Origin: Balneolaceae bacterium
GTDB taxonomy: Bacteria; Bacteroidota; Rhodothermia; Balneolales; Balneolaceae
Length of the DNA: 47,208 nt
Assembly: GCA_020832285.1 (NCBI GenBank)
Contig: JAFIFB010000039.1
Span: forward strand, 1-47,208
Direction: 5' to 3'
Numbering within the stretch: position 1 is the first letter of the stretch; every line of letters starts with the position of its first letter. Position numbers and translations under genes: made by a program. The notes beneath the pieces were generated by a model. That model saw only the letters and a list, made by a program, of their open reading frames with translations. It did no database searches and was not told the DNA's origin. Shown in pieces: positions 704 to 46,719 of the stretch.

Positions 704-1756
704 ATGAAATCTTTATTTTCATTAATCAATGCGTTAAAACAGAACTACAAAACCTTTCAATACTTCTGGCAAAATGAAAAGACAAACAGCGATGAAGAGG
801 TTTCTTTAAAAGAGAGAATGTGGCTCTGGAGGAATGGTTTTAATACATTTCACAAAAACCGTTATGGTTTGACGAAAGAAAATTTCCATCTATATCTGGA
901 TACGTGGAGATATAAAAAAAATGCCTCTTCTTTTAATGGAATATTTAATAAAATTATAGATAATAAAGCGATGATTCCATTCCTTTTACCGGAGAAACTG
1001 ACCTGTAAAAACTACATTATTTTTGAAAATGGGAAGTATGCAGGTGCAAATATCGAAATTGAAGGTTCTGTTGAGAATTTTTTAATAGAACAAGTCAGAC
1101 GGAAAGAATATATCTACAAACCAGTCTTTTCTTCTCTTGGATCTGGGGTAATTTTGCTAACTGAAGAGAACCTTAAGCGTGTTTTGGGTTTTACACGATT
1201 AAAGAAAAAAACAGCGATTATATCTGAAAAATTGTATAATCTTCCCTATTCGGACCAGATATTTTCGGGTTGTACGAATACAATTCGCATCAATGTTATG
1301 AGAGATCCAAATACCAACATACTATTTTTGCTGGATGCAAAACATAAAATTGGTACAAATAAATCAGTGCCAGTAGATAACTGGAGCAAGGGAGGAATAC
1401 TTTTCTATATAGACATTGAAAATGGCAAGTTTATACAAGGGTTTCAGAAAAACGCAAAAGGACAAACCGAAACCATATCACATCACCCCGATACGAACTC
1501 ACCGATCACAGGGGTGCAAATCCCCGGCTGGAACGATGCGGTGATTGAGCTGCTTGATGAACTGAATAAATTAGCCTGGCTACGATACACGGGAATCGAC
1601 GCTGTTTTAACCGGTGATGGGTTTAAAATTATCGAACTGAATTCAGTGCCTGATATCGAAGGGGTGCAATCCAGAATACCCCTTTATAAAGATACCCGGA
1701 CCCGGGCTTTTTTAGAAAATGTGGGAGTTAAACCTAGAAGAAAAATTGAAAATTAA
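704..1756 (+). CDS. Sugar-transfer-associated ATP-grasp protein (copy 2 of 4)
   Basis: Complete 350-residue soluble protein with no signal peptide. The N-terminal part (about 1-110) carries a conserved DTWRYKKN / NGIFNK-IDNK-PFLLP block shared by all complete copies. The ATP-grasp part follows: Lys139 in YIYKP with the SSLGSGV glycine loop is the expected ATP-binding lysine, ISEKL is the next strand, and E311-x-N313 in IIELNSVP is the expected magnesium site. The family is linked to synthesis of cell-surface polysaccharides; the ligated substrates are not known. Copy 3 is the closest relative, about four-fifths identical by eye, and a 47-base stretch (1241-1287 against 2504-2550) differs at one base. 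The ATG at 704 is supported by the identical start context of copy 3. Confidence 0.9.
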   Translation: MKSLFSLINALKQNYKTFQYFWQNEKTNSDEEVSLKERMWLWRNGFNTFHKNRYGLTKENFHLYLDTWRYKKNASSFNGIFNKIIDNKAMIPFLLPEKLTCKNYIIFENGKYAGANIEIEGSVENFLIEQVRRKEYIYKPVFSSLGSGVILLTEENLKRVLGFTRLKKKTAIISEKLYNLPYSDQIFSGCTNTIRINVMRDPNTNILFLLDAKHKIGTNKSVPVDNWSKGGILFYIDIENGKFIQGFQKNAKGQTETISHHPDTNSPITGVQIPGWNDAVIELLDELNKLAWLRYTGIDAVLTGDGFKIIELNSVPDIEGVQSRIPLYKDTRTRAFLENVGVKPRRKIEN

Positions 1757-1804
1757 ATAGAATAAACTTGCAATTACTTCGGATGGCTTTGAATAAGACA
1801 TTTT

Positions 1805-1850
1805 CCAGACGAGACCCTGATATCGTCTGGCTGCCCATGCGGCCAGCCAG
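1805..1850 (+). other. Two overlapping, mutually exclusive stem-loops
   Basis: Between copies 2 and 3, CCAGACGA (1805-1812) pairs with TCGTCTGG (1823-1830), and CTGGCTG (1827-1833) pairs with CAGCCAG (1844-1850). The two stems share 1827-1830, so only one can form at a time. No T-run follows, so this is not a standard terminator. It could be an attenuator-like switch or a decayed repeat. Confidence 0.4.
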
Positions 1851-1919
1851 TCGAACTTTATAATGGAAGTTTAAAACCTGAAAATTTATACAATCTGTGC
1901 GTAACTAAAGTTTATAAGA

Positions 1920-1966
1920 CTGTTTTGCTATTCCTGTTAAAATAAACTTATATAATCGCCCAAAAC
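1920..1966 (+). promoter_or_regulatory. Conserved upstream block of ATP-grasp copy 3
   Basis: Counterpart of 657-703. It starts with the same CTGTTTTGCTATTCCTGT and ends at the ATG at 1967, with the same length and no gap. The similarity stops upstream of this block, so the duplicated unit appears to have been the gene plus about 47 bases of leader. Confidence 0.5.
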
Positions 1967-3028
1967 ATGAGATCTTTTTTTTCATTAATCAATGCCTTAG
2001 ATAAAAACTACAAAACCTTGCTTTTTTTCTGGAATAATGAAAAGAGGAAAAGCGAAGAAGAGGTCTCTTTAAAAGAGAGGCTGTGGCTCTGGAAAAATGG
2101 TTTTAATACTTTTCAAAAAAGCCGTTATGGTTTGACTAAAGAAAATATTCATCTTTATCTGGATACATGGAGATATAAAAAAAATGCAGAAGCTTACAAT
2201 GGAATCTTTAATAAAGTAATAGATAACAAAGCAATGATTCCATTCCTGTTGCCAAAGAACCTCACTTGTGAAAACTATATTATTTTTGAAAAAGGGAAAT
2301 ATGCAGGGGCAAATTTTGATATTGATGGTTCTGTTGAAAATTTTTTAATGGAACAAGTCAAACAAAAAGAATATATCTACAAACCAGTCTATTCTTCACT
2401 TGGATCTGGGGTTATTTTGCTAACTGAAGAAAATATCAAGCGTGTATTGGGTTTTGCACGATTAAAGAAAAAAACAGCAATCATATCTGAAAAGTTGTAC
2501 AATCTTCCCTATTCGGACCAGATTTTTTCGGGTTGTACGAATACAATTCGAATCAATGTTATCAGAGATCCTAAAACGAATCAACTTTATTTACTGGATG
2601 CAAATCAAAAATTCGGCACAAATAAATCTGCCCCTGTAGATAACTTTGGCAAGGGCGCACTTCTTTTTAATATAGATATAGAGAATGGCACCCTTCTGGA
2701 GGGATATCAGAAAAACGAAGAGGGATATACCAAGACTATATCACATCATCCCGATACCAACTTGCCAATAACCGGGATACAAATTCCAGGCTGGAAAGAT
2801 GCTGTGAATAATCTGCTTCAGGAACTGAATAAATTAGTCTGGCTCCGTTATTCGGGTATCGATGCAGTTTTAACCAGGGATGGTTTTAAAATTATTGAAC
2901 TGAATTCAATACCGGGCCTTGAAGGGGTGCAATCCAGAATACCGCTATTTAAAGATCCGCGAACCCGTGCTTTTTTGAATAGTGTAGGTATTCAGCCAAG
3001 AAAAAAAATTGAAAATTCACCTGAATGA
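1967..3028 (+). CDS. Sugar-transfer-associated ATP-grasp protein (copy 3 of 4)
   Basis: Complete 353-residue paralogue of the preceding gene with the same domain order: N-terminal RYKKN/NGIFNK/PFLLP region, YIYKPVYSSLGSGV with the ATP-binding lysine, the NTIRIN strand, and the ATP-grasp IIELNSIPG motif near the C terminus. No membrane segment or signal peptide is visible, so it should act in the cytoplasm on a precursor. Differences from copy 2 are spread over the protein but cluster around residues 210-260 (after the VDN motif), where substrate-specificity loops may lie. It has its own conserved leader rather than a tight operon spacing. Function in surface glycan synthesis is family-level inference. 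Confidence 0.9.
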   Translation: MRSFFSLINALDKNYKTLLFFWNNEKRKSEEEVSLKERLWLWKNGFNTFQKSRYGLTKENIHLYLDTWRYKKNAEAYNGIFNKVIDNKAMIPFLLPKNLTCENYIIFEKGKYAGANFDIDGSVENFLMEQVKQKEYIYKPVYSSLGSGVILLTEENIKRVLGFARLKKKTAIISEKLYNLPYSDQIFSGCTNTIRINVIRDPKTNQLYLLDANQKFGTNKSAPVDNFGKGALLFNIDIENGTLLEGYQKNEEGYTKTISHHPDTNLPITGIQIPGWKDAVNNLLQELNKLVWLRYSGIDAVLTRDGFKIIELNSIPGLEGVQSRIPLFKDPRTRAFLNSVGIQPRKKIENSPE

Positions 3029-3166
3029 AGGTACTTTTTTCAGCGATTATTTTGGCCTGGTCTGTTGCTCCAAGAGGTCATTCAACCTTTTTAAAAGAAA
3101 CTTGTTATTGTAAGACCGAAACCGGATTATTTTTAATGGATAATTCAAAAATATGCTTTGAAGTAA

Positions 3167-4240
3167 ATGATGCTGTTCTCATATTTTAATAAACTGCGAT
3201 GGCATATTACGGTGTATAAATACTTTTTGGGGAAAGAAAAATCATACCAAAGCCAGGAAGTGCCTCTAAGAGACAAGATTTGGCTTTGGCAAAATGGTTT
3301 CAATTCTTTTAGCAAGAGACAAGACGGAGTCACTAGAAGTAACAGTCATTTATATCTTGATACTTTACGATACAAAAAATATCACCGCAGATATAACGGA
3401 CTTTTTCATAAAGCAATTGATAATAAGGCTCTGTTGCCATTTCTGTTACCCGAAAACCTGATTCCTGAAGATTATTGTATTTTTAAAAATGGTAAATTTA
3501 TCGGCAGTAATGTTGAAATTGAAGGCCCGGCAGAAGGTTATCTGAAAAAGAAAATGGCTCTAAAGCCATTTATTTATAAACCTGTTTATTCTTCACTTGG
3601 TATTGGTATTATTGAATTAAACCAGGAGAATTTTAATCGTGTACTGGGTTTTGCGAAGGCGAAAAACAGAACCTTCATTATTAGTGAGAAGGTGCAAAAT
3701 CAAGCGTATTCCGCAAAATTTTTTAATGGTTCAACAAATACGATTCGCTTTCATTTGATGAGAGACCCGGCAACCCATAAGTTATTCATTTATGATACTA
3801 TACATAAAATTGGCACTCAAAAATCTACTCCGGTGGATAACTGGAGTAAAGGCGGGTGCTATTTTCATATCGATAAAGAATCTGGCAAAATTGGAAGTGG
3901 CCTTTTAAAAACTGATGACAATAAAATAAAAGTAATTACGCACCATCCTGATACCGGCATTCAAATAACGGGAATACAAATTCCGGGGTGGAAACATAAA
4001 GTGAATAATCTTCTGAATGAGCTTAATAAACATATTTGGCTTCGATATACAGGTATAGATGCAGTATTAACCGAACAGGGTTTTAAAATTTTAGAATTGA
4101 ATTCCCTGCCTGATTTGGATGGGCTGCAAGCAAAAAAACCAATCTTCAGTGATCCTCAGGCAGCAGCCTTTTTCGAAAATGCAGGGGTATATCCCAAGCA
4201 GAAAAGAGAATCAGTAAAGTTTTTCAGCTTTTTCGGCTGA
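3167..4240 (+). CDS. Sugar-transfer-associated ATP-grasp protein (copy 4 of 4)
   Basis: Complete 357-residue paralogue, more distant from copies 2 and 3 than those are from each other. The family core is intact: RYKKYHRRYNGLFHKAIDNK, then FIYKPVYSSLGIGI with the ATP lysine, NTIRFHLMRDP, and ILELNSLPD at the C-terminal end. Two adjacent ATG codons (3167 and 3170) could start it. The upstream 47-bp block of copies 2 and 3 is absent. The last 30 bases overlap the 3' end of proC on the opposite strand, and the final residues (SVKFFSFFG) are unlike the other copies, so the tail has probably drifted into the neighbouring gene. Confidence 0.88.
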   Translation: MMLFSYFNKLRWHITVYKYFLGKEKSYQSQEVPLRDKIWLWQNGFNSFSKRQDGVTRSNSHLYLDTLRYKKYHRRYNGLFHKAIDNKALLPFLLPENLIPEDYCIFKNGKFIGSNVEIEGPAEGYLKKKMALKPFIYKPVYSSLGIGIIELNQENFNRVLGFAKAKNRTFIISEKVQNQAYSAKFFNGSTNTIRFHLMRDPATHKLFIYDTIHKIGTQKSTPVDNWSKGGCYFHIDKESGKIGSGLLKTDDNKIKVITHHPDTGIQITGIQIPGWKHKVNNLLNELNKHIWLRYTGIDAVLTEQGFKILELNSLPDLDGLQAKKPIFSDPQAAAFFENAGVYPKQKRESVKFFSFFG

Positions 4241-34960: not shown

Positions 34961-35854
34961 ATGAATAACCATCTCAAAGTATTAGAAGATGAAGGTATTT
35001 TTATAATGAGAGAAGTGGCCGCTCAATTTGAACGGCCGGTACTATTATTTTCCGGAGGGAAAGATTCCATTTGCATGGTTCAGCTTGCTCTAAAGGCTTT
35101 TTATCCCGGGAAAATACCCTTTCCGCTGATGCATATCGATACCGGCCATAATTTTCCGGAAACGATCGAATTCAGAGATCGTCTGGTGGAAGAGCACGGC
35201 CTTGAATTAATTGTGGGTTCCGTACAAGAGTCGATTAATAATGGAAGGGTGAAAGAGGAGACAGGCCCTGATGCCAGCCGGAATGCACTTCAGACGGTTA
35301 CATTACTCGATACACTGAAAAAACATCAGGTGGATGCTGCACTTGGAGGCGGACGCCGTGATGAGGAAAAAGCACGTGCCAAAGAGCGGTTCTTTTCGCA
35401 CAGGGATGTGTTTGGCCAGTGGGACCCAAAACAGCAGCGTCCCGAACTCTGGAACCTGTTTAATGGCAGAAAAAATCCTGGAGAAAGTTTCCGGGTGTTT
35501 CCGCTAAGCAACTGGACCGAAATGGACGTGTGGCAGTATATTACCCAGGAAAAAATGGATATTCCCTCCATATACTTTGCACACAAGCGGAAAGTGTTCG
35601 AGCGGCGAGGGGTATGGCTGGCTGATACCGAATTTGTTAACCGCCAGGATGATGAAGAGATCGTTGAAAAAACGGTTCGCTTCCGAACCATCGGAGATGC
35701 TACCTGCACAGGTGCAGTTCTTTCCAATGCTTCTACACTGGATGAAATTATCGAAGAAGTGTCGGCCGCACGGCAAACCGAGCGCGGGAACCGCCATGAT
35801 GACAAACGCAGTGAAACCGCCATGGAAGATAGGAAGAGGCAGGGGTACTTTTGA
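34961..35854 (+). CDS. cysD: Sulfate adenylyltransferase subunit 2
   Basis: Catalytic subunit of ATP sulfurylase, which makes adenosine 5'-phosphosulfate from sulfate and ATP. The 297 residues have the PP-loop SGGKDS at 31-36, then HIDTGHNFPETIEFRD, the GGRRDEEKARAKER segment and the C-terminal NRQDDEEIVEKTVRFRTIGDATCTGAV block. The partner GTPase subunit is the N-terminal part of CysNC, but a small gene and 310 further non-coding bases separate them, which is unusual because cysD and cysN normally adjoin. Confidence 0.96.
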   Translation: MNNHLKVLEDEGIFIMREVAAQFERPVLLFSGGKDSICMVQLALKAFYPGKIPFPLMHIDTGHNFPETIEFRDRLVEEHGLELIVGSVQESINNGRVKEETGPDASRNALQTVTLLDTLKKHQVDAALGGGRRDEEKARAKERFFSHRDVFGQWDPKQQRPELWNLFNGRKNPGESFRVFPLSNWTEMDVWQYITQEKMDIPSIYFAHKRKVFERRGVWLADTEFVNRQDDEEIVEKTVRFRTIGDATCTGAVLSNASTLDEIIEEVSAARQTERGNRHDDKRSETAMEDRKRQGYF

Positions 35855-35877
35855 CCATTGGGCTTCGCCCGACGGGT

Positions 35878-36399
35878 GACGAAGGACCGGTGACGGTTGA
35901 CCGGAATGAGAGGGAGAGAATTCCTTGAAGTGTTCACTTGGCAAGTAAAATTTACGTGACCTAAAAATCAATTCTCAGAATAAATTATGAAATATAAGTT
36001 TGAAGATTTAAAGGTTTGGCAACTGTCTTTAGATTTGGGAGATTGTGTCTATGAACTTTCAGAAGATCTGCCGGAGATTGAAAGGTTCAATCTTAAATCA
36101 CAGATTATTCGTGCAATAACATCTGTTTCTCTTAATATTGCTGAAGGCTCAACATCACAATCAGATGCTCAACAATCTAAATTTATTGGTTATGCGATCC
36201 GTTCTTTAATCGAAGTTATTGCATGTATAAGAATCATAGAAAGAAGAAATTATTTGCATGACTCTCAGGTAAAAAACAAAACAGAAGTATTTTGCCATAA
36301 TTTATTTATAAAATTACAAGCATTTAGAAATTCATTGTCTTGAAATGACTGAAAAGGCAAAAGTTTAGTAACCAGTTAAATTCTAACCGGTCTTTCGTC
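35878..36399. repeat. Inverted repeats flanking the small gene between cysD and cysNC
   Basis: GACGAAGGACCGGT (35878-35891) is the reverse complement, with one mismatch, of ACCGGTCTTTCGTC (36386-36399). Related low-complexity GGACCGG/CCGTCC-type text continues at 36459-36485. The pair encloses the four-helix-bundle gene, so the whole block could be an inserted cassette. Confidence 0.5.
35987..36343 (+). CDS. Four-helix bundle protein (23S rRNA intervening-sequence type)
   Basis: A 118-residue helical protein of the S23/IVP family. The N terminus FEDLKVWQLSLDLGDCVYELSEDLP and the core NLKSQIIRAITSVSLNIAEGSTSQSDAQQSKFIGYAIRSLIE are the classic signature. Members are encoded in insertions within 23S rRNA genes of some bacteria, in diversity-generating retroelements (Avd), and as free genes; their role is unknown. 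Here the gene lies between cysD and cysNC, is more AT-rich than both, and is flanked by inverted repeats. Confidence 0.9.
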   Translation: MKYKFEDLKVWQLSLDLGDCVYELSEDLPEIERFNLKSQIIRAITSVSLNIAEGSTSQSDAQQSKFIGYAIRSLIEVIACIRIIERRNYLHDSQVKNKTEVFCHNLFIKLQAFRNSLS

Positions 36400-36521
36400 T
36401 TCGGTCAAAATCAAAAACGAATTACAAAAAAGGATTGAATTGAGGATTGCAAAAAACATCGGTCTCCGGTCCTCCGTCCTCCGTCAAAAAAAATTAAAAT
36501 CTACCAATACAGAATCAATCA

Positions 36522-38459
36522 ATGAGCAACTCCAACGGAACATCGCAAGAAATTAGTAACAACTACCTCGACATGGACCTCCTCCGCTTTACAACAGCCG
36601 GGAGTGTGGATGACGGCAAGAGCACATTGATCGGGCGGCTTTTGTATGATTCGAAATCCATTTTTGAAGACCAGATGGAAGCGATTGAGAAGACCAGCCG
36701 AAGCAGCGGTGAAGAGAAGGTAAACCTGGCACTATTAACGGATGGCCTACGCGCAGAAAGAGAGCAGAAAATCACGATTGATGTAGCCTATCGCTATTTT
36801 GCTACACCCAGAAGAAAGTTTATTATCGCTGATACACCCGGCCATATTCAGTATACTCGAAATATGGTGACCGGGGCATCTACTGCAGAACTGGCTATTA
36901 TACTGGTGGATGCATCCAAAGGGGTGCTCACACAATCAAAAAGGCACGCCTTTATCTCATCGCTGCTGCATATCCCGCATCTCGTGGTTGCAGTAAACAA
37001 GATGGATTTAGTAGACTACGATCAAAATCGATTCGATAAAATTGTATCGGAGTTCCGGACTTTTGCGAAAAAACTGGATGTGGACAACATTTCATACATC
37101 CCGATTTCTGCTTTGAAAGGAGATAATGTTGTGGAGAAAAGTGAGCAAACATCCTGGTATAAAGGTGCTACGCTTCTTCATCATCTCGAAACGGTGAAGG
37201 TCGATTCTTCCCAGAATATTATTGATTTTCGGTTTCCTGTACAGTACGTGATTCGGCCGAACCAAAATTTCAGAGGGTTTTCAGGCCGTGTGGCTTCCGG
37301 GCGGGTAAAACCTGGAGAAGAGGTGCTGGCCCTACCGTCTAAGAAATCGAGCCGCATCAAAGAAATTGTAACCAAAGACGGAAATCTTGAAGAGGCAGTT
37401 CCCGGAGATTCGGTCACGTTTACGCTGGAAGACGAGATTGACATCAGCCGCGGGGATATGATTGTTCGAAAAAACAATGTCCCCAATGTCACAAATGCTT
37501 TTGAGGCATATTTATGCTGGATGAACGAAGAAGAGATGGAGCTTGACAAGTCTTACATCATCATGCACACCTCACGCACTGCCCAAGTGTTTATTACCGA
37601 TTTGATTTACCGTATGAATGTAGATTCCATCAGCCGCGAAGATGCCGATACACTGAAACTGAATGAAATAGGCCGGGTGAAACTGAAAACTTCGCAGCCT
37701 CTTTTCATCGATCCGTATCAGATTAACCAGCGAACCGGCAGTTTTATCATTATCGATCCCGCTTCGAATGTGACTGTAGGTGCCGGAATGATACGCGCTG
37801 GTTCAACAGAGTCGAAAAAGAACGGTAAGAGTGGTTCTGATTCAAAGAAAAAATCACCCAATGTGGTATGGCAGCCCTGGAATATTCCGCGTGAGGAAAG
37901 AGAAAAGAGAAACGGGCACAAGGCGAAAGTGCTCTGGTTTACCGGCATTTCTGGTGCGGGCAAAAGCACCATTGCCAGAGAGCTGGAGAAACGTCTCTGG
38001 AAAGAAGGCAGGCAAACCATGCTGCTCGACGGCGACCAGGTACGCCACGGGCTGAATGGAGACCTTGGCTTCAGTCCGAAAGACCGAACTGAAAATATTC
38101 GCCGGATAGGTGAAGTAGCACGGCTCTTCTTCGAGCACGGAAATATTGTGATCTGTACATTTGTCTCTCCTTACAGAGAAGATCGTGAGGCTGTTCGGGA
38201 ACTGTTTCCGGAAGGAACATTTGAAGAGATTTTTGTGAAATGTGCCCCTGAAACTGCACACTCACGTGATCCAAAAGGATTATATGAAAAGGCAAAAAAG
38301 GGTGAGATTAAAAACCTGACAGGGTTTGACGGGGAGTATCAGGCTCCTAAACATGAAAACGCGGTCGTGATTGATACGGACAGGCAGTCTGTTGAAGAGT
38401 GCGCAGATGAGTTAATTAATAAGTTTTTTCACATCTGTCCAAAACGTTTAAAAAAATAG
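36522..38459 (+). CDS. cysNC: Sulfate adenylyltransferase subunit 1 / adenylylsulfate kinase fusion
   Basis: Two enzymes in 645 residues. The N-terminal CysN part is a translation-factor-like GTPase that drives ATP sulfurylase: P-loop GSVDDGKST at 27-35, then ADTPGHIQYTRNM and NKMD. The C-terminal CysC part phosphorylates APS to PAPS: P-loop GISGAGKST at 475-483, then DGDQVRHGLNGDLGFS. A K/S-rich linker (about 430-455) joins them. PAPS can feed sulfate reduction or sulfation. The last seven residues and the stop codon come from the left end of an IS element (from 38435); the APS kinase fold should be nearly complete before that point. Confidence 0.95.
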   Translation: MSNSNGTSQEISNNYLDMDLLRFTTAGSVDDGKSTLIGRLLYDSKSIFEDQMEAIEKTSRSSGEEKVNLALLTDGLRAEREQKITIDVAYRYFATPRRKFIIADTPGHIQYTRNMVTGASTAELAIILVDASKGVLTQSKRHAFISSLLHIPHLVVAVNKMDLVDYDQNRFDKIVSEFRTFAKKLDVDNISYIPISALKGDNVVEKSEQTSWYKGATLLHHLETVKVDSSQNIIDFRFPVQYVIRPNQNFRGFSGRVASGRVKPGEEVLALPSKKSSRIKEIVTKDGNLEEAVPGDSVTFTLEDEIDISRGDMIVRKNNVPNVTNAFEAYLCWMNEEEMELDKSYIIMHTSRTAQVFITDLIYRMNVDSISREDADTLKLNEIGRVKLKTSQPLFIDPYQINQRTGSFIIIDPASNVTVGAGMIRAGSTESKKNGKSGSDSKKKSPNVVWQPWNIPREEREKRNGHKAKVLWFTGISGAGKSTIARELEKRLWKEGRQTMLLDGDQVRHGLNGDLGFSPKDRTENIRRIGEVARLFFEHGNIVICTFVSPYREDREAVRELFPEGTFEEIFVKCAPETAHSRDPKGLYEKAKKGEIKNLTGFDGEYQAPKHENAVVIDTDRQSVEECADELINKFFHICPKRLKK

Positions 38460-38531: not shown

Positions 38532-39716
38532 ATGACAAATGTAACACTATTTGCACAGATTATTCAGACCCTGGATCGTTTTTCGTTTTCTAAACTGGTC
38601 CAAACCCACCAAACTGATAAACATCACAAGGGGATTCACAGTTGGACACATTTGGTAACGATGTTGTTCTGCCAATTTTCCAATCTTAACTCTCTTCGTG
38701 ATGTCTGCAATGGATTAAAATCCGCCTCCGGTAACCTGAACCATCTGGGCGTGGAGCGTGCCCCCTGCAAATCATCGTTGTCCTATCAAAACAAACATCG
38801 TAATTGGCAGTTGTTCCAAGCCTATTATTTCAAGATGTTGGCCAAACTCTCCGGGATGGCCACGTTTCGGCAAACCCGCTTCAAGATCAAAAGCAAGATC
38901 CTTCTGTTGGATTCGACCACCATTAGCTTGTGCCTGAGTTTGTATGACTGGGCCCGGTTTCGCAAGAAAAAGGGAGCCATTAAACTGCATACCCTATTAG
39001 ACTATGACGGATGCCTGCCGGTTTATATGAATATGACCGATGGGAAGGTTCATGACGCCAAAGCTGTCAAAGAGCTTTCCCTGCCTAAAGACGCTGTTGT
39101 GGTGGCCGACCGGGCCTATGTGGATTTCCAGACCCTGTGGCGCTGGCATCAGGGTGGGAGTTATTTTGTCGTACGGCTTAAAACATCCATCAAATTCAAC
39201 CGCCTGAATGAGAAATCCCTGCCCGAAGGGCGACACCAGCACGTTCTTGTGGATGAATATATCGAGTTAAGTGAATCCAAGACCCGTGCCAAGTACCCCA
39301 AAAAGCTACGCCGTGTGGTGATCTATGATCCCGAGAAAAACCAAACCATCGAATTGATCACGAATCATTTTTATTGGACAGCAAACACCATTGGCGAGCT
39401 TTATAAAGCCCGCTGGGATATCGAGATCTTCTTCAAAGAGATCAAGCAACTGCTCAAAATCAAATCATTTCTGGGAACCACCCCGAATGCGGTATTAATT
39501 CAGATTTGGACAGCACTGATTACGATTCTGATCTTAAAATATCTGAGAGCTTGCGCAAGCTACCCTTGGTGTCTATCGAATATGGTCGCCTTTCTGAGGT
39601 TAAACCTGTTTGTCAAATTTGAGCTGAGAAGGCTGCTGGATCACCCATTTAAGCCACCTGGCGGACAAAATAAACCCCAGTCAGTACAAGGGGTGCTGTT
39701 TGATTGGGGGGATTGA
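38532..39716 (+). CDS. IS4-family transposase
   Basis: A 394-residue DDE transposase with an N-terminal DNA-binding region typical of IS4 members with a DUF4372-like opening (FSKLVQTHQTDKHHKGIHSWTHLVTMLFCQFS). The catalytic residues are the Asp of ILLLDSTTIS, the Asp of VVVADRAYVDF, and the Glu of the YREK signature, Y-x2-R-x3-E-x6-K, in YKARWDIEIFFKEIK. The frame is intact with no stop or shift, so the copy may be active. Its start lies directly after an inverted-repeat arm. Confidence 0.93.
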   Translation: MTNVTLFAQIIQTLDRFSFSKLVQTHQTDKHHKGIHSWTHLVTMLFCQFSNLNSLRDVCNGLKSASGNLNHLGVERAPCKSSLSYQNKHRNWQLFQAYYFKMLAKLSGMATFRQTRFKIKSKILLLDSTTISLCLSLYDWARFRKKKGAIKLHTLLDYDGCLPVYMNMTDGKVHDAKAVKELSLPKDAVVVADRAYVDFQTLWRWHQGGSYFVVRLKTSIKFNRLNEKSLPEGRHQHVLVDEYIELSESKTRAKYPKKLRRVVIYDPEKNQTIELITNHFYWTANTIGELYKARWDIEIFFKEIKQLLKIKSFLGTTPNAVLIQIWTALITILILKYLRACASYPWCLSNMVAFLRLNLFVKFELRRLLDHPFKPPGGQNKPQSVQGVLFDWGD

Positions 39717-40191: not shown

Positions 40192-40899
40192 ATGAATATT
40201 TTATCGGTAGTTATCGCACGAGGAGGTTCGAAAGGCATACCTCGAAAAAATTTGGCTGATGTTGGCGGGATCCCATTGGTTGCACACATCATTAAAAGCG
40301 CTTTAGGTGTAAAAACTTCTACAGATTTGGTATTATCAACTGAAGATGAAGAGATCGCAAAAATAGGTTTGGAATTTGGAGCTGAAGTTCCGTTTATGAG
40401 ACCACAGGAGTTGGCAGGTGATGATGTAACTTCACTTCCTGTAGTTCAGCATGCAGTGATTCAGATGGAAAATATAAAAGGGTACAGATATGATATTATC
40501 AACTATTTACAACCCACCGCGCCACTATGCCGGACGATTGATATTGAGAATTGCCTTCAAAAACTTAAAGATAATAAGGAAGCGGAAAGTGTTGTGACCA
40601 TAATTGAATCTCCCGTACATCCTTTTAAGATGAAAAGAGTTGTAGATGAAGATCGTGTCATCAATTTTATAGATCAGGGATTTGAAGATATGCGTCCGCG
40701 ACAATCGCTGCCCAAGGTTTACAAACGGTCCGGGGCCGTTTACGCAAGCAGGCGCTCTGTTGTAATGAACCAGAACTCACTCGTTGGGGAGCCATGCCTT
40801 GGCGTTATTGTCCCAAAAGAGACTGCCGTTGATATAGATACCCCCGAAGACCTCGAACTTGTACGTTTGTTATATAAAAAAATAAACTTAAATAAATAA
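40192..40899 (+). CDS. neuA: CMP-nonulosonate (acylneuraminate) cytidylyltransferase
   Basis: Activates a nine-carbon sialic-acid-like sugar with CTP to give the CMP-sugar donor. The 235 residues open with the signature ARGGSKGIPRKN (about 9-20) that binds CTP, followed by LPVVQHAV and YDIINYLQPTAPL. The C-terminal VDIDTPEDLELV is also usual. The exact sugar (sialic, legionaminic or pseudaminic) cannot be read from this gene alone. It is the first gene of the cluster, and the next starts ten bases later. Confidence 0.93.
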   Translation: MNILSVVIARGGSKGIPRKNLADVGGIPLVAHIIKSALGVKTSTDLVLSTEDEEIAKIGLEFGAEVPFMRPQELAGDDVTSLPVVQHAVIQMENIKGYRYDIINYLQPTAPLCRTIDIENCLQKLKDNKEAESVVTIIESPVHPFKMKRVVDEDRVINFIDQGFEDMRPRQSLPKVYKRSGAVYASRRSVVMNQNSLVGEPCLGVIVPKETAVDIDTPEDLELVRLLYKKINLNK

Positions 40900-40909
40900 T
40901 TATTACAGA

Positions 40910-41890
40910 ATGTCAGTCACATTAATTGCAGAACTTTGCCAAAATCATTTAGGAGACTTTAAACTTGTTAAAGAGATGGTGGATGAAGCTGTGGAAGCAG
41001 GAGCCACACATATCAAAATTCAACATATCTATACAAAGAATCTAACCTTCAGGCCTCAATTTGAAGAGGGTCTTACTCAAAATGGGGTTACTCAGAGTAT
41101 AAAACGGCCATGGGAACCTGAATTTGAACGGTTAAAACCTCTTGAATTAAGCTCTGAAGACAACCGGAAATTTGTGAAGTATGTGGAGTCTAAAGGAGCT
41201 GTTCCGCTTACAACCTGTTTTGCAAGATGTGATATACCTGCAATAAAAGCGGAGGGTTTTAAAGCAATTAAAGTTGCAAGTTATGACTGTGCATCCTATC
41301 AGTTGTTAAGAGAGCTTGCAGAGCATTTTTCTGAAATTTTTGTATCAACAGGTGCCACTTTTTCAAACGAAATCAAAAAAGCATCACAGGTTTTAAAAGA
41401 TAAAAATGTGAATTACACTTTTCTTCATTGTGTGACGATTTATCCTACTCCATTGGAGGAGATGCATTTATCAAGATTAGACTGGTTAAAAGGATTGTCA
41501 CAGGAAACAGGATTTTCAGATCATTCACTTGTATCGCGTGATGGTGTATTTGCATCAAAAGCGGCAATAGCTGTTGGTGCAAAGGTTGTAGAGCGCCATT
41601 TTACAGTGTTGGAGGAGGATGAATCCAAAGATGGCCCCGTATCTATCAGACCGGAACATTTGCGGGAGTTAAAAAGGTTCTCGGAGCTGAGTAATGAGGA
41701 ACAGTTCGATGAGCTTAATAATGAAATGCCCCAATGGAAAGAAATACTTTTGGGAAATGCAGGCCGGAAACTAAGTCATGAAGAACTCTTAAATCGAGAC
41801 TATTACAGAGGCAGATTCGCTTCGCCAAGAGAATCCGGTAAGCACCAATCAGCATCAATGATCTACAACTGGGAGGAGACAGGGGTATGA
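40910..41890 (+). CDS. neuB: Nonulosonate synthase (NeuB/LegI type), apparently without SAF domain
   Basis: Condenses phosphoenolpyruvate with an acyl-hexosamine to form a nine-carbon acid. The TIM-barrel part is clear: LIAELCQNHLGDFKLVKEMVDEA at the start, KVASYDCASYQLLRELA, the VSTGATFSNEI segment, GFSDHSLVSRDG and GAKVVERHF. At 326 residues it is a little short. The region after LGNAGRKLSHEELLNRDYYRGRF, where the antifreeze-like SAF domain should begin, ends within about 25 residues. The SAF domain normally helps close the active site. The frame is otherwise intact and overlaps the next gene by ATGA. Confidence 0.9.
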   Translation: MSVTLIAELCQNHLGDFKLVKEMVDEAVEAGATHIKIQHIYTKNLTFRPQFEEGLTQNGVTQSIKRPWEPEFERLKPLELSSEDNRKFVKYVESKGAVPLTTCFARCDIPAIKAEGFKAIKVASYDCASYQLLRELAEHFSEIFVSTGATFSNEIKKASQVLKDKNVNYTFLHCVTIYPTPLEEMHLSRLDWLKGLSQETGFSDHSLVSRDGVFASKAAIAVGAKVVERHFTVLEEDESKDGPVSIRPEHLRELKRFSELSNEEQFDELNNEMPQWKEILLGNAGRKLSHEELLNRDYYRGRFASPRESGKHQSASMIYNWEETGV

Positions 41891-43608
41891 GCCGCGAACA
41901 TATTAGACAACTTGTTACGTTGGTAGGGCCGCGAGAGAGTATCATTGATACTATTCAAAAAATGGCAAAGAAAGAAGCCCTTCATACTGAAATTGCTGTT
42001 ATAGCAGACTCGGAGTTTAGAGTCCTGGGTGTTTTTAATGATGGAGATGTTTTAAGGCTTATCAGTACAGGGGTAGATCTGGATCAACCTATTAGCAATG
42101 TTATGGTGAAAGATCCAGTAGTTGTAAAGGAAGGGTTGAGCCACGAAGAGATCATTACCGAAGTCCGTGAGCAGTTGAGGAAAAGGGGAGTTTCGGGCAA
42201 AAAACATGTCAGGAGTGTGTTAATAGTTGATGAAAGTAAGATTCTTGTAAATGTAATCAATTATATAGATCTCCTTTCGGCCTATAAAAAGTTTGAAGAA
42301 GAGGTGGCCATCTATGGCCAGGGTTTTGTGGGATTAACACTTGCAGCAAGCCTTGCAAGTATTGGCCATACCGTAGTAGGGGTAGACAAGGATGAAAGTT
42401 TGATATCTAAGCTGCAACGTGGGGAAGTACACGTTTATGAACCACGTCTATCCGATATGGTAAAAGCATCTCTTGATAAAGGTACCTTAACATTTTCCGC
42501 ATCTGCAGAATCCAACCGGCCTGAAATTCATATCATTTCTGTGGGTACTCCTGTGAATGATTCTGGAGAAGCTGATCTTGATGCACTCACCTCAGTATGT
42601 GAAACTATAGGCGGAATAATGAAACGTGGTGATTTGGTAATGTTGCGTTCCACAGTACCTGTAGGAACCACAAGAAACGTTGTAAAGCCTTTGCTTGAAA
42701 AGGTTTCTGACTATAAAGCAGGTCAGGATTTTTATCTTGCGTTCACTCCTGAACGTACTGCTGAAGGCAAAGCAATGGCAGAGTTGAGGGAACTCCCTCA
42801 AATTGTGGGTGGGCTTACACCGATCTGCACACAGAAAGCGGCAAGTTTTTGGTCATCACTGACCGATACAGTTGTTCAGGTGAAAGGAGTTGAAGCTTCA
42901 GAACTGGTTAAACTTATAAATAACAGTTTTCGAGATTTGTCTTTTTCATTTTCAAATGCTATCTCTGCTCTATCTGACAAATATAATATCGATTCATTTA
43001 AACTCATTAATGCAGCTAATGAAGGTTATCCGCGCAATAAAATTCCAACTCCAAGCCCCGGAGTTGGTGGGTACTGTCTTACAAAAGATCCCTATTTATT
43101 TGCTGCTGTTAACCCGGAGTTAGGACATGCACGTTTGGCAAAAGAGGGACGTAAAATTAATCAACAGGCGGCAGATTATCCTGTTGAGATACTGAAAAGA
43201 TACTCTAAACAACGGAATCTGAAACTTTCGGACTTAACTGTATTTATTGTAGGGCTTGCATTTAAAGGCTGGCCAGCAACCAATGATATGCGTGGATCTT
43301 CAGCACTTCACGTAGCACGGAAACTTAAGAATGAGAAAGTATCAGTAAAAGGCTGGGATGCTGTGGTAAAACCAGATGAAATTCGATTTTATAATATAGA
43401 ACCTGTTGATTTTTATGACGGATGCAATGAAGCGGACGCTATACTGATTATGAATAATCATCCGGATAATGTACCTTCAGGTTTTCTGTCTAAATTAAAA
43501 AATAAAAAAATGTTGATTTTCGACGGATGGTCTATGCTATCATCAAATGAAATAGAAAGAATACCTGGGCTAACCTATTCCACAATGGGATATTTATCTA
43601 ATAATTGA
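41887..43608 (+). CDS. CBS-domain / nucleotide-sugar dehydrogenase fusion
   Basis: One 573-residue frame with two parts. Residues about 5-132 form a pair of CBS motifs (VLGVFNDGDVLRLISTG and VLIVDESKILVNVINYIDLLSAYK) that would bind an adenosyl ligand. Residues 139-573 are a UDP-sugar C6-dehydrogenase: NAD motif GQGFVG at 144-149, the STVPVGTTR and FTPERTAEGKA blocks, the catalytic Cys397 in PGVGGYCLTKDP, and the C-terminal VGLAFKGWPATNDMRGS. The enzyme oxidises a UDP- or GDP-hexose(amine) to the uronic acid. CBS domains are known in the legionaminate-pathway nucleotidyltransferase PtmE, but I do not know this fusion. The start overlaps the neuB stop (ATGA), so translation is coupled. Confidence 0.92.
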   Translation: MSREHIRQLVTLVGPRESIIDTIQKMAKKEALHTEIAVIADSEFRVLGVFNDGDVLRLISTGVDLDQPISNVMVKDPVVVKEGLSHEEIITEVREQLRKRGVSGKKHVRSVLIVDESKILVNVINYIDLLSAYKKFEEEVAIYGQGFVGLTLAASLASIGHTVVGVDKDESLISKLQRGEVHVYEPRLSDMVKASLDKGTLTFSASAESNRPEIHIISVGTPVNDSGEADLDALTSVCETIGGIMKRGDLVMLRSTVPVGTTRNVVKPLLEKVSDYKAGQDFYLAFTPERTAEGKAMAELRELPQIVGGLTPICTQKAASFWSSLTDTVVQVKGVEASELVKLINNSFRDLSFSFSNAISALSDKYNIDSFKLINAANEGYPRNKIPTPSPGVGGYCLTKDPYLFAAVNPELGHARLAKEGRKINQQAADYPVEILKRYSKQRNLKLSDLTVFIVGLAFKGWPATNDMRGSSALHVARKLKNEKVSVKGWDAVVKPDEIRFYNIEPVDFYDGCNEADAILIMNNHPDNVPSGFLSKLKNKKMLIFDGWSMLSSNEIERIPGLTYSTMGYLSNN

Positions 43609-43619
43609 TAATATTACTG

Positions 43620-44630
43620 ATGGCTTCATGTCTTATTATTGCCTGTGATAATGGATTTGGACATACAAGAAGAGCCCTTCTTTTAGCCAATAAGCTGGCC
43701 AATAAAAACTGGGATGTATATCTGCTTGCACCCCAGATTGCAGCCCAAAAACTGATCGGACTATTTGGGATTGAAAAAGGAGTTCATTTTGAAGATTTTA
43801 ATACAATGACGAATGCTGAAGCATATCGGGAGGGGAAACTTTACAACTGGCTTGATGATTTACCAAAATTGGATGAGTTTGACGTTGTGGTGAGTGATAA
43901 CCTGCCAGAAATCTTGAAGATCAGGCCGGATACAGTTTTGAGTGGAAGTTTTTTATGGCATTATGCTGTAAAAAACGCTGACAGATTACTTTATAAAAAA
44001 ATCGAAAGTTTGTTGAAAGAATACAAACCTGCCATGATTGCTTCTGAACTACTTGCGGGGCCTGAACTCTATAAATACACTAACCTCATAACAGTTGGAT
44101 TGTTCGTTCCGGATAAAAAAAAATATAATACTCGGACAGGAAAAGATCTTTTAATTGCTTGTGGAAGAGGTGGTGAATATGAAAGCGAGTTTAAACGGCT
44201 TGTTGAAAAAATTGCGAGCCAAAAGCGAGAACCACTTTTTCATACATTCTGGATTGAACCAAAAATTTTACCTGAAAATGCACCCGGCTGGATGAAACCT
44301 GCGACGTTTGATGAGAAAATGTACAGCGGACTTATCGCTTCAATTTGTCGTCCGGGTGTAGGTACTTTAACTGATTCACTTTGGAATGAGGCGAAGGTTT
44401 TTTGCACTTTTGAAAAACAAAACCAAGAAATGATGCAAAATGCTAAAATGATGAAAAAGAAAAATATAGGAAATTATTTCAGGGACCCAATGGATGCATA
44501 TAAAGCCGCGAGTTTATATGTTTCTAATTTAAGTGATCAGAAAAATTTTTATCAATCTTTAAAAAAGATTAGCTTTAATGGGGTAGAAAAGTCTATACAA
44601 GCAATTGAAGAGTATAAATTTGGGGTTTAA
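43620..44630 (+). CDS. GT-B glycosyltransferase (MurG/UDP-glycosyltransferase-like)
   Basis: A 337-residue protein. The N terminus LIIACDNGFGHTRRALLLANKLA has the glycine-histidine-x-x-arginine pattern of GT-B acceptor-binding domains, and the C-terminal CRPGVGTLTDSLWNEAKVFCTF with KQNQEMMQNA resembles the donor-binding half of MurG-like enzymes. No membrane helix is visible, so it should work at the cytoplasmic face. The start is the ATG at 43620, 11 bases after the dehydrogenase stop; the in-frame TTG at 43605 is less likely. Donor and acceptor are unknown, though a uronic-acid donor from the dehydrogenase is plausible. Confidence 0.8.
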   Translation: MASCLIIACDNGFGHTRRALLLANKLANKNWDVYLLAPQIAAQKLIGLFGIEKGVHFEDFNTMTNAEAYREGKLYNWLDDLPKLDEFDVVVSDNLPEILKIRPDTVLSGSFLWHYAVKNADRLLYKKIESLLKEYKPAMIASELLAGPELYKYTNLITVGLFVPDKKKYNTRTGKDLLIACGRGGEYESEFKRLVEKIASQKREPLFHTFWIEPKILPENAPGWMKPATFDEKMYSGLIASICRPGVGTLTDSLWNEAKVFCTFEKQNQEMMQNAKMMKKKNIGNYFRDPMDAYKAASLYVSNLSDQKNFYQSLKKISFNGVEKSIQAIEEYKFGV

Positions 44631-44885
44631 TTTCTTTTGTATCGTTAATGGTTCATTGGTATTATCGTTATTCGTATAAGTGCAAGTTTGTTTTTCACTC
44701 ATTTTTGTAATAACAAATAACCATTAACCTAAAAGGAATAATATTCAATATTAAATCCCCTCTTAATACAAAACTTACCATATAGTACCTACATTAGAGT
44801 ATCTCTATTATTATAATTCACTAAATATATTACTGGAGTAAGTAAATAATTGCTAATCCATTTTAATATTATAATAGTGTTAAAA

Positions 44886-46067
44886 ATGAAAAAAGCTGCT
44901 TTTATAGTAAAAGATCATAAAACGTATCCCCATGCTGAGGAGGCGTGGTATAAATTTTACGGAAAAAAAGTTGGAGCAGTACTGTTTATAGTATATCCAA
45001 AGGGAGATCCAAATAATGTTGTAGAGACATTGGAAGAAGTTGTCGATCACTCAAAGTGGGAAGAAATAGTATGGGTAAAAACATGGAGTAATTTTAGACC
45101 CAGGGCACTTAAAGTAAAAAGAAAAAAGAATATATTTTTAGACTATTATCTTCGCTATGTTGAATATTTTTATAACAGGCTGGATACATTAATGATCAAT
45201 AAGATTGCTAAGAAATATAAAGATATTGACTTGGTTTTTTCCGGGCACAAAAACACACAAGAACACCTTGCAGCAAAACTCGAACCAAAAGAACTTTTTT
45301 TACTTGATTCCGGAAATTTTAATAATAAAATTGGTAGATCAGGTTATATAGATTATAGCAATGGTAGAAAATATAAACGCTCTCGTAAAGGTAAACTCTT
45401 GTTTTATTTAACAGGGCTTAAAATTTATGATCGAAAAAAGACCAAAATTTTCACTATTTACGCTGATGCAATTAAAACCAAACATGATACCGTTAAAAAC
45501 AACCAAGAGTATAAGAAGCTTCTTTTAAGTAAAAAAAAGGTTGGTGACGAAGTACTTTTTATCAGTTCCCCCGTTTATAAATTGGCAAAAGGAGTCCAAC
45601 TTACTCGGTTTATTGAATATTTAAGAAAAACTTTTGAAGCTTTAGATGTTGATCCTTTAAAAGTCATTTATATTCCTAACCCTATAAGAGAAAATAAAAG
45701 TGATGTTATTAAGATAACGGAGGCGTTGGGTTGTAGTTATGATGATCGTTCAATACCGGTAGAAATCAAGATTACCAAATATAAAAAATTACCCAGGCTA
45801 ATTATCTCTCCTTATTCCACTGCACTACTCAATATCAAAGTAATTTTATTGGATAAAATACCAATCTGTTGTGCGTGGCACCCGGAGTTTAAATATTTTA
45901 AACATATAGCCAAGTTGAGAAATACCTTATTGGATGTAGAAGAAAATGGAATTAAATTTTTGGTCGTGAAAGATGCTCCGAAGTTTTTTGATGTTAATGC
46001 GAATCAATATAAAGGAAGTCCACTATTTTCTAATTTCACTGACTGGAATCAACAGTACACGAAGTAA
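44886..46067 (+). CDS. Putative nonulosonic-acid glycosyltransferase (polysialyltransferase-like)
   Basis: A 393-residue, very AT-rich and lysine-rich gene. I recognise it only loosely. The RLIISPYSTALLNIKVILLDKIPI stretch near residue 310, the CCAWHP motif after it, and the early KNTQEHLAAKLEPKELFLLDSGNF segment resemble the layout of GT52/polysialyltransferase-type enzymes, in which a conserved serine/tyrosine-rich loop and a His-Pro bind the CMP donor. The position downstream of neuA and neuB supports such a role, but this is inference. I chose the ATG at 44886 over a TTG at 44850. The 255 bases before it are AT-rich, so it may have its own promoter. Confidence 0.65.
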   Translation: MKKAAFIVKDHKTYPHAEEAWYKFYGKKVGAVLFIVYPKGDPNNVVETLEEVVDHSKWEEIVWVKTWSNFRPRALKVKRKKNIFLDYYLRYVEYFYNRLDTLMINKIAKKYKDIDLVFSGHKNTQEHLAAKLEPKELFLLDSGNFNNKIGRSGYIDYSNGRKYKRSRKGKLLFYLTGLKIYDRKKTKIFTIYADAIKTKHDTVKNNQEYKKLLLSKKKVGDEVLFISSPVYKLAKGVQLTRFIEYLRKTFEALDVDPLKVIYIPNPIRENKSDVIKITEALGCSYDDRSIPVEIKITKYKKLPRLIISPYSTALLNIKVILLDKIPICCAWHPEFKYFKHIAKLRNTLLDVEENGIKFLVVKDAPKFFDVNANQYKGSPLFSNFTDWNQQYTK

Positions 46068-46182: not shown

Positions 46183-46719
46183 TCATCCTGACATCTGGCT
46201 GAGCACTTCTTCATGGATATCGTAATCTTCTGAGTCCCATAGAACAAATCGAACCAGCTTTACAGCTCTGAGTTTGTCGGAAACATCATCAATGGTCTCG
46301 AATGCAACTTGAGCTGCTTCCCGAACAGGATATCCGAAAGCACCGGTTGAAAGTGCCGGAAAAGCAATGGATCGGATTTTATGATCATCTGCGAGCCACA
46401 AAGCATTTTCATAACAGTCCCGCAGAATTTTATCGGAAGGATTGTCCTTGCCATACACAGGCCCCAGGCAGTGAATGATATATTTGTTAGGGAGATTCGG
46501 AGCGGATGTGATCACCGCTTGTCCCGGTAATATCGGTGTCAGTTTTTTTGTTTCATTGGCGAGCTCCGGGTCGCCAATAGTGTGAATGGCTCCGGCCACT
46601 CCGCCACCCGTTCTGAGCCCGGCATTAGCCGCATTTACGATCGCTTCGCAATCGGGCTGCTGAACAATATTTCCCTGAATAATTTCCAGGTCGATATTAT
46701 TTAGTTCAACTTTCTTCAT
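46183..46719 (-). CDS. Macro-domain protein (O-acetyl-ADP-ribose deacetylase type)
   Basis: A 178-residue single macro domain. The ADP-ribose-binding signature is complete: AIVNAANAGLRTGGGVAGAIH (about 25-45), the catalytic-region GPVYGKDNP, and the phosphate loop ALSTGAFGYPV. Homologues remove ADP-ribose or its acetyl ester, in RNA, protein or DNA modification turnover. The gene stands alone, with no toxin partner visible. A 10-bp inverted repeat (46139-46148 with 46188-46197) reaches into its last codons and may fold near the transcript end. Confidence 0.93.
   Translation of the reverse strand: MKKVELNNIDLEIIQGNIVQQPDCEAIVNAANAGLRTGGGVAGAIHTIGDPELANETKKLTPILPGQAVITSAPNLPNKYIIHCLGPVYGKDNPSDKILRDCYENALWLADDHKIRSIAFPALSTGAFGYPVREAAQVAFETIDDVSDKLRAVKLVRFVLWDSEDYDIHEEVLSQMSG

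Follow-up and report, generated by a model that had tools for sequence, protein, structure and literature searches.

A CBS domain pair fused to a nucleotide-sugar dehydrogenase and encoded beside a distinct NeuB clade: a possible sensor of CMP-ulosonates

In IMP dehydrogenase, CBS domains are inserted in a TIM barrel. KdsD acts early in the synthesis of 3-deoxy-D-manno-octulosonic acid (Kdo), which is a CMP-ulosonate pathway, and the PtmE nucleotidyltransferases of legionaminate synthesis bear CBS domains. To our knowledge, no nucleotide-sugar dehydrogenase with a fused sensor domain of its own is known. The stretch of DNA analyzed here, hereafter the window (47,208 nucleotides of contig JAFIFB010000039.1 from a Balneolaceae bacterium), encodes a CBS pair joined to such a dehydrogenase (CBS-DH; DH designating the dehydrogenase part), with its gene starting at the end of a gene for a NeuB-type ulosonate synthase (Table 1). 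Titles and the beginnings of abstracts in mostly non-subscription literature contained no description of a CBS–nucleotide-sugar dehydrogenase, and in the accessible portions of PMC4349605, PMC10254083, and PMC3557214 the relevant terms appear as unrelated mentions. NeuA and NeuB genes have been noted in marine Thaumarchaeota, with no mention of CBS in the part of that text at hand (PMC8397731).

The fusion is real and is a variant built of known parts. An earlier note on the window, drawn from its letters, had described an uninterrupted frame for a CBS pair followed by a complete dehydrogenase with GQGFVG (residues 144–149) and Cys397, and an ATGA overlap with neuB (41887–41890); all of this was borne out. 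The N-terminal region was recognized as CBS by Pfam in two stretches (36.9 bits vs a gathering cut-off of 24); the single motifs are weak when taken separately (23.1 and 23.4 bits), but the pair together passes. It is followed, without a linker, by all three domains of the UDP-glucose/GDP-mannose dehydrogenase family, each above its cut-off (N-terminal NAD-binding domain, UDPG_MGDP_dh_N, 167.5 bits; central domain, 60.3 bits; C-terminal UDP-binding domain, 55.4 bits), and TIGR03026 scored 347.5 bits (cut-off 189.8). The scores for two models of UDP-ManNAc dehydrogenases lay below their cut-offs (NF040825, 235.8 vs 750; NF008286, 233.3 vs 459). AlphaFold2, supplied with 32 family sequences, modeled the whole protein with a mean predicted local distance difference test (pLDDT) score of 91.0 and a predicted template modeling score of 0.75; modeled alone, the CBS region folded with confidence as a CBS pair (pLDDT 91.2) and resembled CBS structures at Z values of up to 14.0; its first Foldseek match was the CBS pair of Klebsiella KdsD (3k2v; E 1.4e-9). 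Because R469 is kept along with the seven DH residues listed in Table 1, catalysis is, as judged from the sequence, probably intact. E289, K342, N346, C397, and D401 are invariant (save one X at 397) across the 32 fused rows of alignment A2, which comprises the window protein and 31 of the 35 CBS-DH proteins described below. Cys, Lys, Asn, Asp, and Glu at these places are the catalytic residues of the family, and oxidation of a nucleotide sugar at C6 is assumed by analogy to the family.

The architecture had been thought peculiar to the window, a view ruled out by 35 other loci. These were obtained from 84,980 genomes with a hand-made DNA pattern laid over the CBS-DH junction (the CBS1 motif, its first DGD Asp encoded by GAT, then 234–264 bases of spacing and GxG[FY]VGL), which matched 86 loci; 35 of them, from 35 genomes and including a few near-copies, encode the same CBS-DH, a number that is a lower bound and no frequency because the pattern is restrictive. 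Since the loci belong to other genomes, the fusion is more than chance. The match extends to near the C-terminus in 31 of the 35 (two lack the first residues at the end of the locus), and four are truncated where a locus or contig stops. In A2, Pfam recognized CBS together with all three DH domains in 32 of 32 proteins. Judged from record titles and the origins of tree rows, CBS-DH is carried by at least nine phyla, one of them archaeal: Pseudomonadota, Cyanobacteriota (Prochlorococcus, Pseudanabaenaceae), Nitrososphaerota, Chloroflexota, Bacteroidota, Spirochaetota, Armatimonadota, Campylobacterota, and Patescibacteria. Closer to the window, its own genome encodes two further dehydrogenases, both without CBS; no second fused CBS-DH was found in 57 relatives, and none in 393 further genomes of the phylum (E 1e-45, three candidates scored per genome). 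A protein scan of the genome collection with the window protein gave no match, nor did viral scans with the window protein or alignment A1, and a viral scan with A2 returned one unfused dehydrogenase and no fusion. Fourteen viral loci that fit a similar DNA pattern were dismissed as chance; the translated matched stretches show no fusion.

A single origin of the fusion is likely on the basis of the trees, albeit not proven. When 101 DH parts were put into a quick tree, all 32 fused rows fell on one side of a branch (support 89), nearest to unfused dehydrogenases of Azospirillum and Ensifer plasmids. In a careful tree of 50 rows (the 32 fused ones and 18 of 69 unfused, chosen by hand), they did so again, with a support of only 68/74. 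The window copy groups there with two alphaproteobacterial copies, one gammaproteobacterial, and one Prochlorococcus copy (100/100), away from the copies of Saprospiraceae.

The association with nonulosonate-type genes, which had been proposed from the window, is kept across phyla. Within CBS-DH loci of at most 8 kb (n = 35), the window NeuB has homologues in 23, the cytidylyltransferase in 20, and the GT28-like protein in 13. Other recurrent neighbors are a D-2-hydroxyacid dehydrogenase family (12/35), a HAD phosphatase family (6/35), and an unknown 255-aa family (6/35), with one member of each scanned with Pfam. When a NeuB alignment was run against the 35 whole genomes, a NeuB clade scoring more than 300 bits was present in 33, whereas all other NeuB matches listed (E 1e-30) reached at most 143 bits; as 19 of the 20 alignment rows came from CBS-DH loci, the high scores arise by construction, but the positions do not. 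CBS-DH and the clade NeuB lie on one contig within 3 kb of each other in 31 of 35 genomes, with gaps of 9–2857 bases (G462 counts among them through an N-terminal fragment of NeuB where a contig ends), and on different contigs in G442 and G464. The other 19 aligned NeuBs share 43–56% identity with that of the window. The reverse, namely the clade without CBS-DH, was tested weakly by two phylum samples: in the phylum of the window, 393 of 394 genomes gave no sign of the clade, the exception being the window's own (up to five candidates scored per genome), and neither did 299 of 300 genomes of an archaeal phylum. That the fusion is an artefact, or a chance neighbor of neuB, can practically be discounted. 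The signs of horizontal transfer around the window cassette (see below) would fit it, and nothing else was found in its favor, against which stand the 35 loci in as many genomes, the position of the fused rows on one side of a branch, and the proximity of NeuB in 31 genomes.

Some loci differ in composition. A family of 225–307 aa adjoins CBS-DH in L072 (3418–4185), L113 (4422–5294), and four more loci; the L072 member has no Pfam match above cut-off, and none of the six shows a GT28-like gene inside the locus. In four loci of Nitrososphaerota (L100, L069, L134, and L084), the cytidylyltransferase is part of a frame of 654–655 aa (cut at 420 aa in L084), and between CBS-DH and NeuB stands a gene whose family has, going by the one member scanned, a TIM barrel like that of xylose isomerase. 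Relatives of NeuB are also encoded on 17 viral contigs (L150–L166), 16 of them with 31–36% identity to the window NeuB over most of its length; that on L166 matches along a short piece only.

The kinship of the CBS pair was assessed with a profile of 29 family CBS regions, from which the row of the window had been left out. The window protein scored 95.6 bits, six PtmE-type nucleotidyltransferases 51.7–79.4, a fusion of CBS to CTP_transf_3 (L182) 65.0, and two KdsD-type proteins 57.3 and 67.4 bits (L168, which passes the KpsF cut-off, and L045, labeled from its layout by eye), although eight of these nine positives, all but L168, had been pre-picked by similarity to the CBS part of the window protein. 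The rest of the list at E 0.01, 14 CBS proteins, scored 13.6–29.6 bits. Pfam was used to check the domain make-up of L182 and of the PtmE-type proteins, in which a CBS domain on a nucleotidyltransferase, stated in the earlier note, was supported. L182 (320–1468) joins the same-clade CBS pair to a CMP-sugar synthetase and lies beside a NeuC-like gene and a piece of NeuB. A fairer test was to run the CBS alignment against 198 genomes of the window's phylum, 125 of which gave matches. The best 30 were classified, and they comprise 16 PtmE-type proteins, 13 KdsD-type proteins, and the window's own CBS-DH; the remaining open frames are mostly 320–370 aa long. Nonulosonate-type genes (NeuB-, NeuC-, CMP-synthetase-, or LegB-like) lie within about 1.5 kb in 14 of the 16 PtmE-type loci, where the NeuC- and LegB-like matches may be other epimerases. 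By closeness of sequence, the pair is thus of the KdsD/PtmE kind, and, on the same footing, this CBS lineage occurs on enzymes of four families, in what have so far been CMP-ulosonate settings.

The grouping of the CBS pair with its counterparts in KdsD, PtmE-type proteins, and a CBS–CMP-sugar synthetase points to sensing of a CMP-ulosonate, rather than of adenosine nucleotides. The dehydrogenase would act in a nonulosonate-type pathway leading to a CMP-ulosonate. The CBS pair at its N-terminus would be a regulatory module that senses, in the family at large, the CMP-activated ulosonate formed at the end of this pathway; binding of this ulosonate would tune the dehydrogenase by feedback. We assign this reading a probability of about 0.5. 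KdsD, PtmE, and the cytidylyltransferase each lead to or form a CMP-ulosonate, and feedback is the simplest reading; as in the earlier note we infer allosteric control of the dehydrogenase by the CBS pair. Both this effect and its ligand are putative, as are the substrate sugar and the product of the pathway.

Several observations weigh against this reading, among them the preselection of most profile positives mentioned above. Structure alone does not separate KdsD/PtmE CBS pairs from others, many being tied by Z, and the CBS pair is, among the matches listed, equally close to AMP/ATP-binding pairs (Z 12.6–14.0, largely tied). A sequence search of the PDB with the CBS alignment placed hypothetical CBS proteins above KdsD. 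Kinship to KdsD by TIGR00393, which matches 32 of 32 fused rows, was dropped as an argument, for generic CBS proteins match equally well or better. The NeuB clade is missing from two of the 35 genomes (G448 without any match, G455 with nothing but an ordinary NeuB at 125 bits), and CBS1 of the window copy is itself without two family residues (see below). CMP-Kdo is reportedly a ligand of the CBS pairs in 4o9k and 3k2v, which the titles of these structures do not prove, whereas in the arabinose-5-phosphate isomerase structure 3ETN it reportedly occupies the active site of the isomerase instead of a CBS pair. In favor of feedback, CMP-Kdo is described as an inhibitor for 3ETN in the accessible part of the source (PMC9587256).

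Adenosyl-nucleotide sensing had been suggested for the window protein from what CBS domains usually bind. If the CBS pair bound AMP/ATP or another adenosyl ligand, uronate supply would be coupled to the energy state of the cell, as many of the ligand-bound CBS structures near the model, which hold AMP, ADP, ATP, or adenosyl compounds, and the general Gxx(T)xxD form retained in CBS1 of the family would allow. A general energy sensor would, however, leave unexplained why the 30 best classified matches place the CBS clade on ulosonate-linked enzymes; moreover, CBS2 of the family is, by eye, without the T/SxxD form, and CBS1 of the window copy is without the Thr. Given its grouping with KdsD- and PtmE-type pairs and the change of two motif residues in the window copy, the suggestion was not supported, and we regard energy sensing as unlikely.

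The window copy departs from its own family at CBS1, a change overlooked in the earlier account of its CBS motifs. It reads NDGDVL in place of the family's TDGDIR, so that the [TS]DGD[ILV]R motif is absent; Thr and Arg are lost in the window copy only and kept in 31 of 31 relatives. Because these two residues are replaced, regulation of the window copy may be altered or lost, and the pair may bind another ligand or none. It could be ligand-free and serve only folding or the assembly of oligomers, in line with the substitutions G35E, T51N, and R56L at positions where 29, 31, and 31 of the 32 rows, respectively, hold the family residue. Yet the CBS region has not decayed overall (set against that of the DH part, its identity falls on the family line; mean residual −0.009, fit SD 0.052), its model is confident, and the motif Asp is kept. 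A purely structural CBS pair in the window is hence considered rather improbable, and it would be compatible with feedback in the rest of the family.

Two options exist for the role of the dehydrogenase: it may supply UDP-uronate for a partner sugar of the same glycan, or its product may enter the NeuB reaction, giving a dicarboxylic ulosonic acid. The near-constant linkage to NeuB favors close coupling of the two enzymes and does not decide between these roles. The former, in which an ordinary UDP-uronic acid is made for another residue of the glycan, is possible, if somewhat doubtful, and is compatible with feedback through the CBS pair; proximity of NeuB would then reflect a conserved pair of uronate and ulosonate sugars and not a shared biosynthetic route. 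The nearest solved relatives, UDP-ManNAc and TDP/UDP-glucose dehydrogenases, fit this option, as does the GT28-like gene, which lies next to CBS-DH in the window, although in loci of up to 8 kb it recurs less often than NeuB (13 vs 23 of 35), NeuB being present in 33 of the 35 genomes. A far-reaching version of the latter option, which we hold to be quite improbable, combines two propositions: that the CBS lineage is a dedicated CMP-3-deoxy-ulosonate sensor on at least four unrelated enzymes (isomerase, nucleotidyltransferase, CMP-sugar synthetase, and nucleotide-sugar dehydrogenase), and that the oxidized (uronic) sugar is the substrate from which NeuB forms a nonulosaric acid, in an undescribed pathway spread horizontally through bacteria and archaea. 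If the CBS pair does sense CMP-ulosonates, a single testable explanation would cover a regulatory element that recurs in Kdo and sialic-acid-like pathways, and the NeuB–CBS-DH pair would be a marker for a surface sugar in, among others, Prochlorococcus, Patescibacteria, and archaea of the Nitrososphaerota.

In the window, CBS-DH belongs to a run of four, possibly five genes (Table 1). The cytidylyltransferase stays below the PseF cut-off (TIGR03584, 152.2 vs 205.7 bits). NeuB is a member of its Pfam family, with a match spanning the NeuB domain only; because it lies under the curated cut-offs for N-acetylneuraminate synthase (TIGR03569, 160.1 vs 399.65) and pseudaminate synthase (TIGR03586, 122.2 vs 340.25), the product cannot be named. 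For the GT28-like gene, an ATG start is favored over TTG at 43605. With its family profile, 12 sequences of the PDB were listed (E up to 1), including GT-B transferases and none named PseG; the protein may be a glycosyltransferase or a hydrolase of the PseG type. The last gene, after a gap, encodes a protein with no significant match in Pfam, NCBIfam, or the PDB, and is possibly, as a guess by eye, a ulosonate transferase; kinship to polysialyltransferases was discarded after BLASTP with a Halorussus protein gave nothing significant.

Table 1. Features of the CBS-DH cassette and its upstream border.
Feature	Position	Strand	Evidence
IS4-family transposase bordering the cassette upstream	38532..39716	+	NF033592 260 bits, cut-off 115
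CMP-ulosonate-type cytidylyltransferase, CTP_transf_3, PseF-like	40192..40899	+	PF02348 73.1 bits
NeuB-type ulosonate synthase, distinct clade, 326 aa	40910..41890	+	PF03102 160.9 bits vs 22.1
CBS-CBS-nucleotide-sugar dehydrogenase fusion (CBS-DH), 573 aa	41887..43608	+	Frame open, 573 residues plus stop
CBS pair, residues about 10–132; CBS1 motif NDGDVLR at residues 51–57	41914..42282	+	
DH part, residues 139–573	42301..43605	+	E289, K342, N346, C397, K400, D401, K460 kept
GT28-like GT-B protein (GxGHxxR...RPGxGTxTD), glycosyltransferase or hydrolase	43620..44630	+	Glyco_tran_28_C 15.9 bits, below cut-off
Family-less protein after the cassette, 393 aa	44886..46067	+	GC content at third codon positions (GC3) 0.266, cassette-like

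The GC3 of the five genes from the cytidylyltransferase to the 393-aa protein is 0.27–0.34, compared with 0.37 to 0.55 for the 18 other window genes measured, three at the window start excepted. Because of this low GC3 and the upstream transposase, the base composition and setting of 40192–46067 suggest an acquired island that arrived horizontally. The three excepted genes (704–4240; GC3 0.31–0.35) include two that were scanned (704–1756 and 1967–3028) and encode ATPgrasp_ST, a sugar-transfer associated ATP-grasp. Elsewhere in the window, 34961–38459 holds a sulfate activation pair of CysD and a bifunctional CysN-APS-kinase, with a gene for a 23S_rRNA_IVP four-helix protein in between (35987–36343), and after the cassette follows a macro-domain protein (46183–46719) whose best NCBIfam matches, O-acetyl-ADP-ribose deacetylases, are below cut-off.

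Of the systems that resemble CBS-DH, the arabinose-5-phosphate isomerases KdsD/GutQ/KpsF (SIS domain and CBS pair; PDB 3k2v, 4o9k, and 3fna) have a CBS pair of the same clade, with the TDGD[ILV]RR motif in CBS1 of 12 of the 13 KdsD-type proteins from the phylum survey, but their catalytic part is a sugar isomerase and the CBS pair is C-terminal. PtmE-type proteins share with CBS-DH the CBS clade, the N-terminal position of the pair, and the nonulosonate-type genes beside most of them, and differ in that the catalytic part is an NTP_transferase. In L182, the CBS clade is again the same, but the catalytic part is the CMP-sugar synthetase itself. On the side of the dehydrogenase, UDP-ManNAc dehydrogenase of Pyrococcus horikoshii (4r16) and CalS8 (4xr9) have the same fold with three domains (Z 45.9 and 44.7; 31–32% identity), and their alignments start at model residue 133–138, past the CBS pair. 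IMP dehydrogenase resembles CBS-DH in bearing a CBS pair on a dehydrogenase; the rows presumed, by length and motif, to be this enzyme scored 18–22 bits with the CBS-DH profile.

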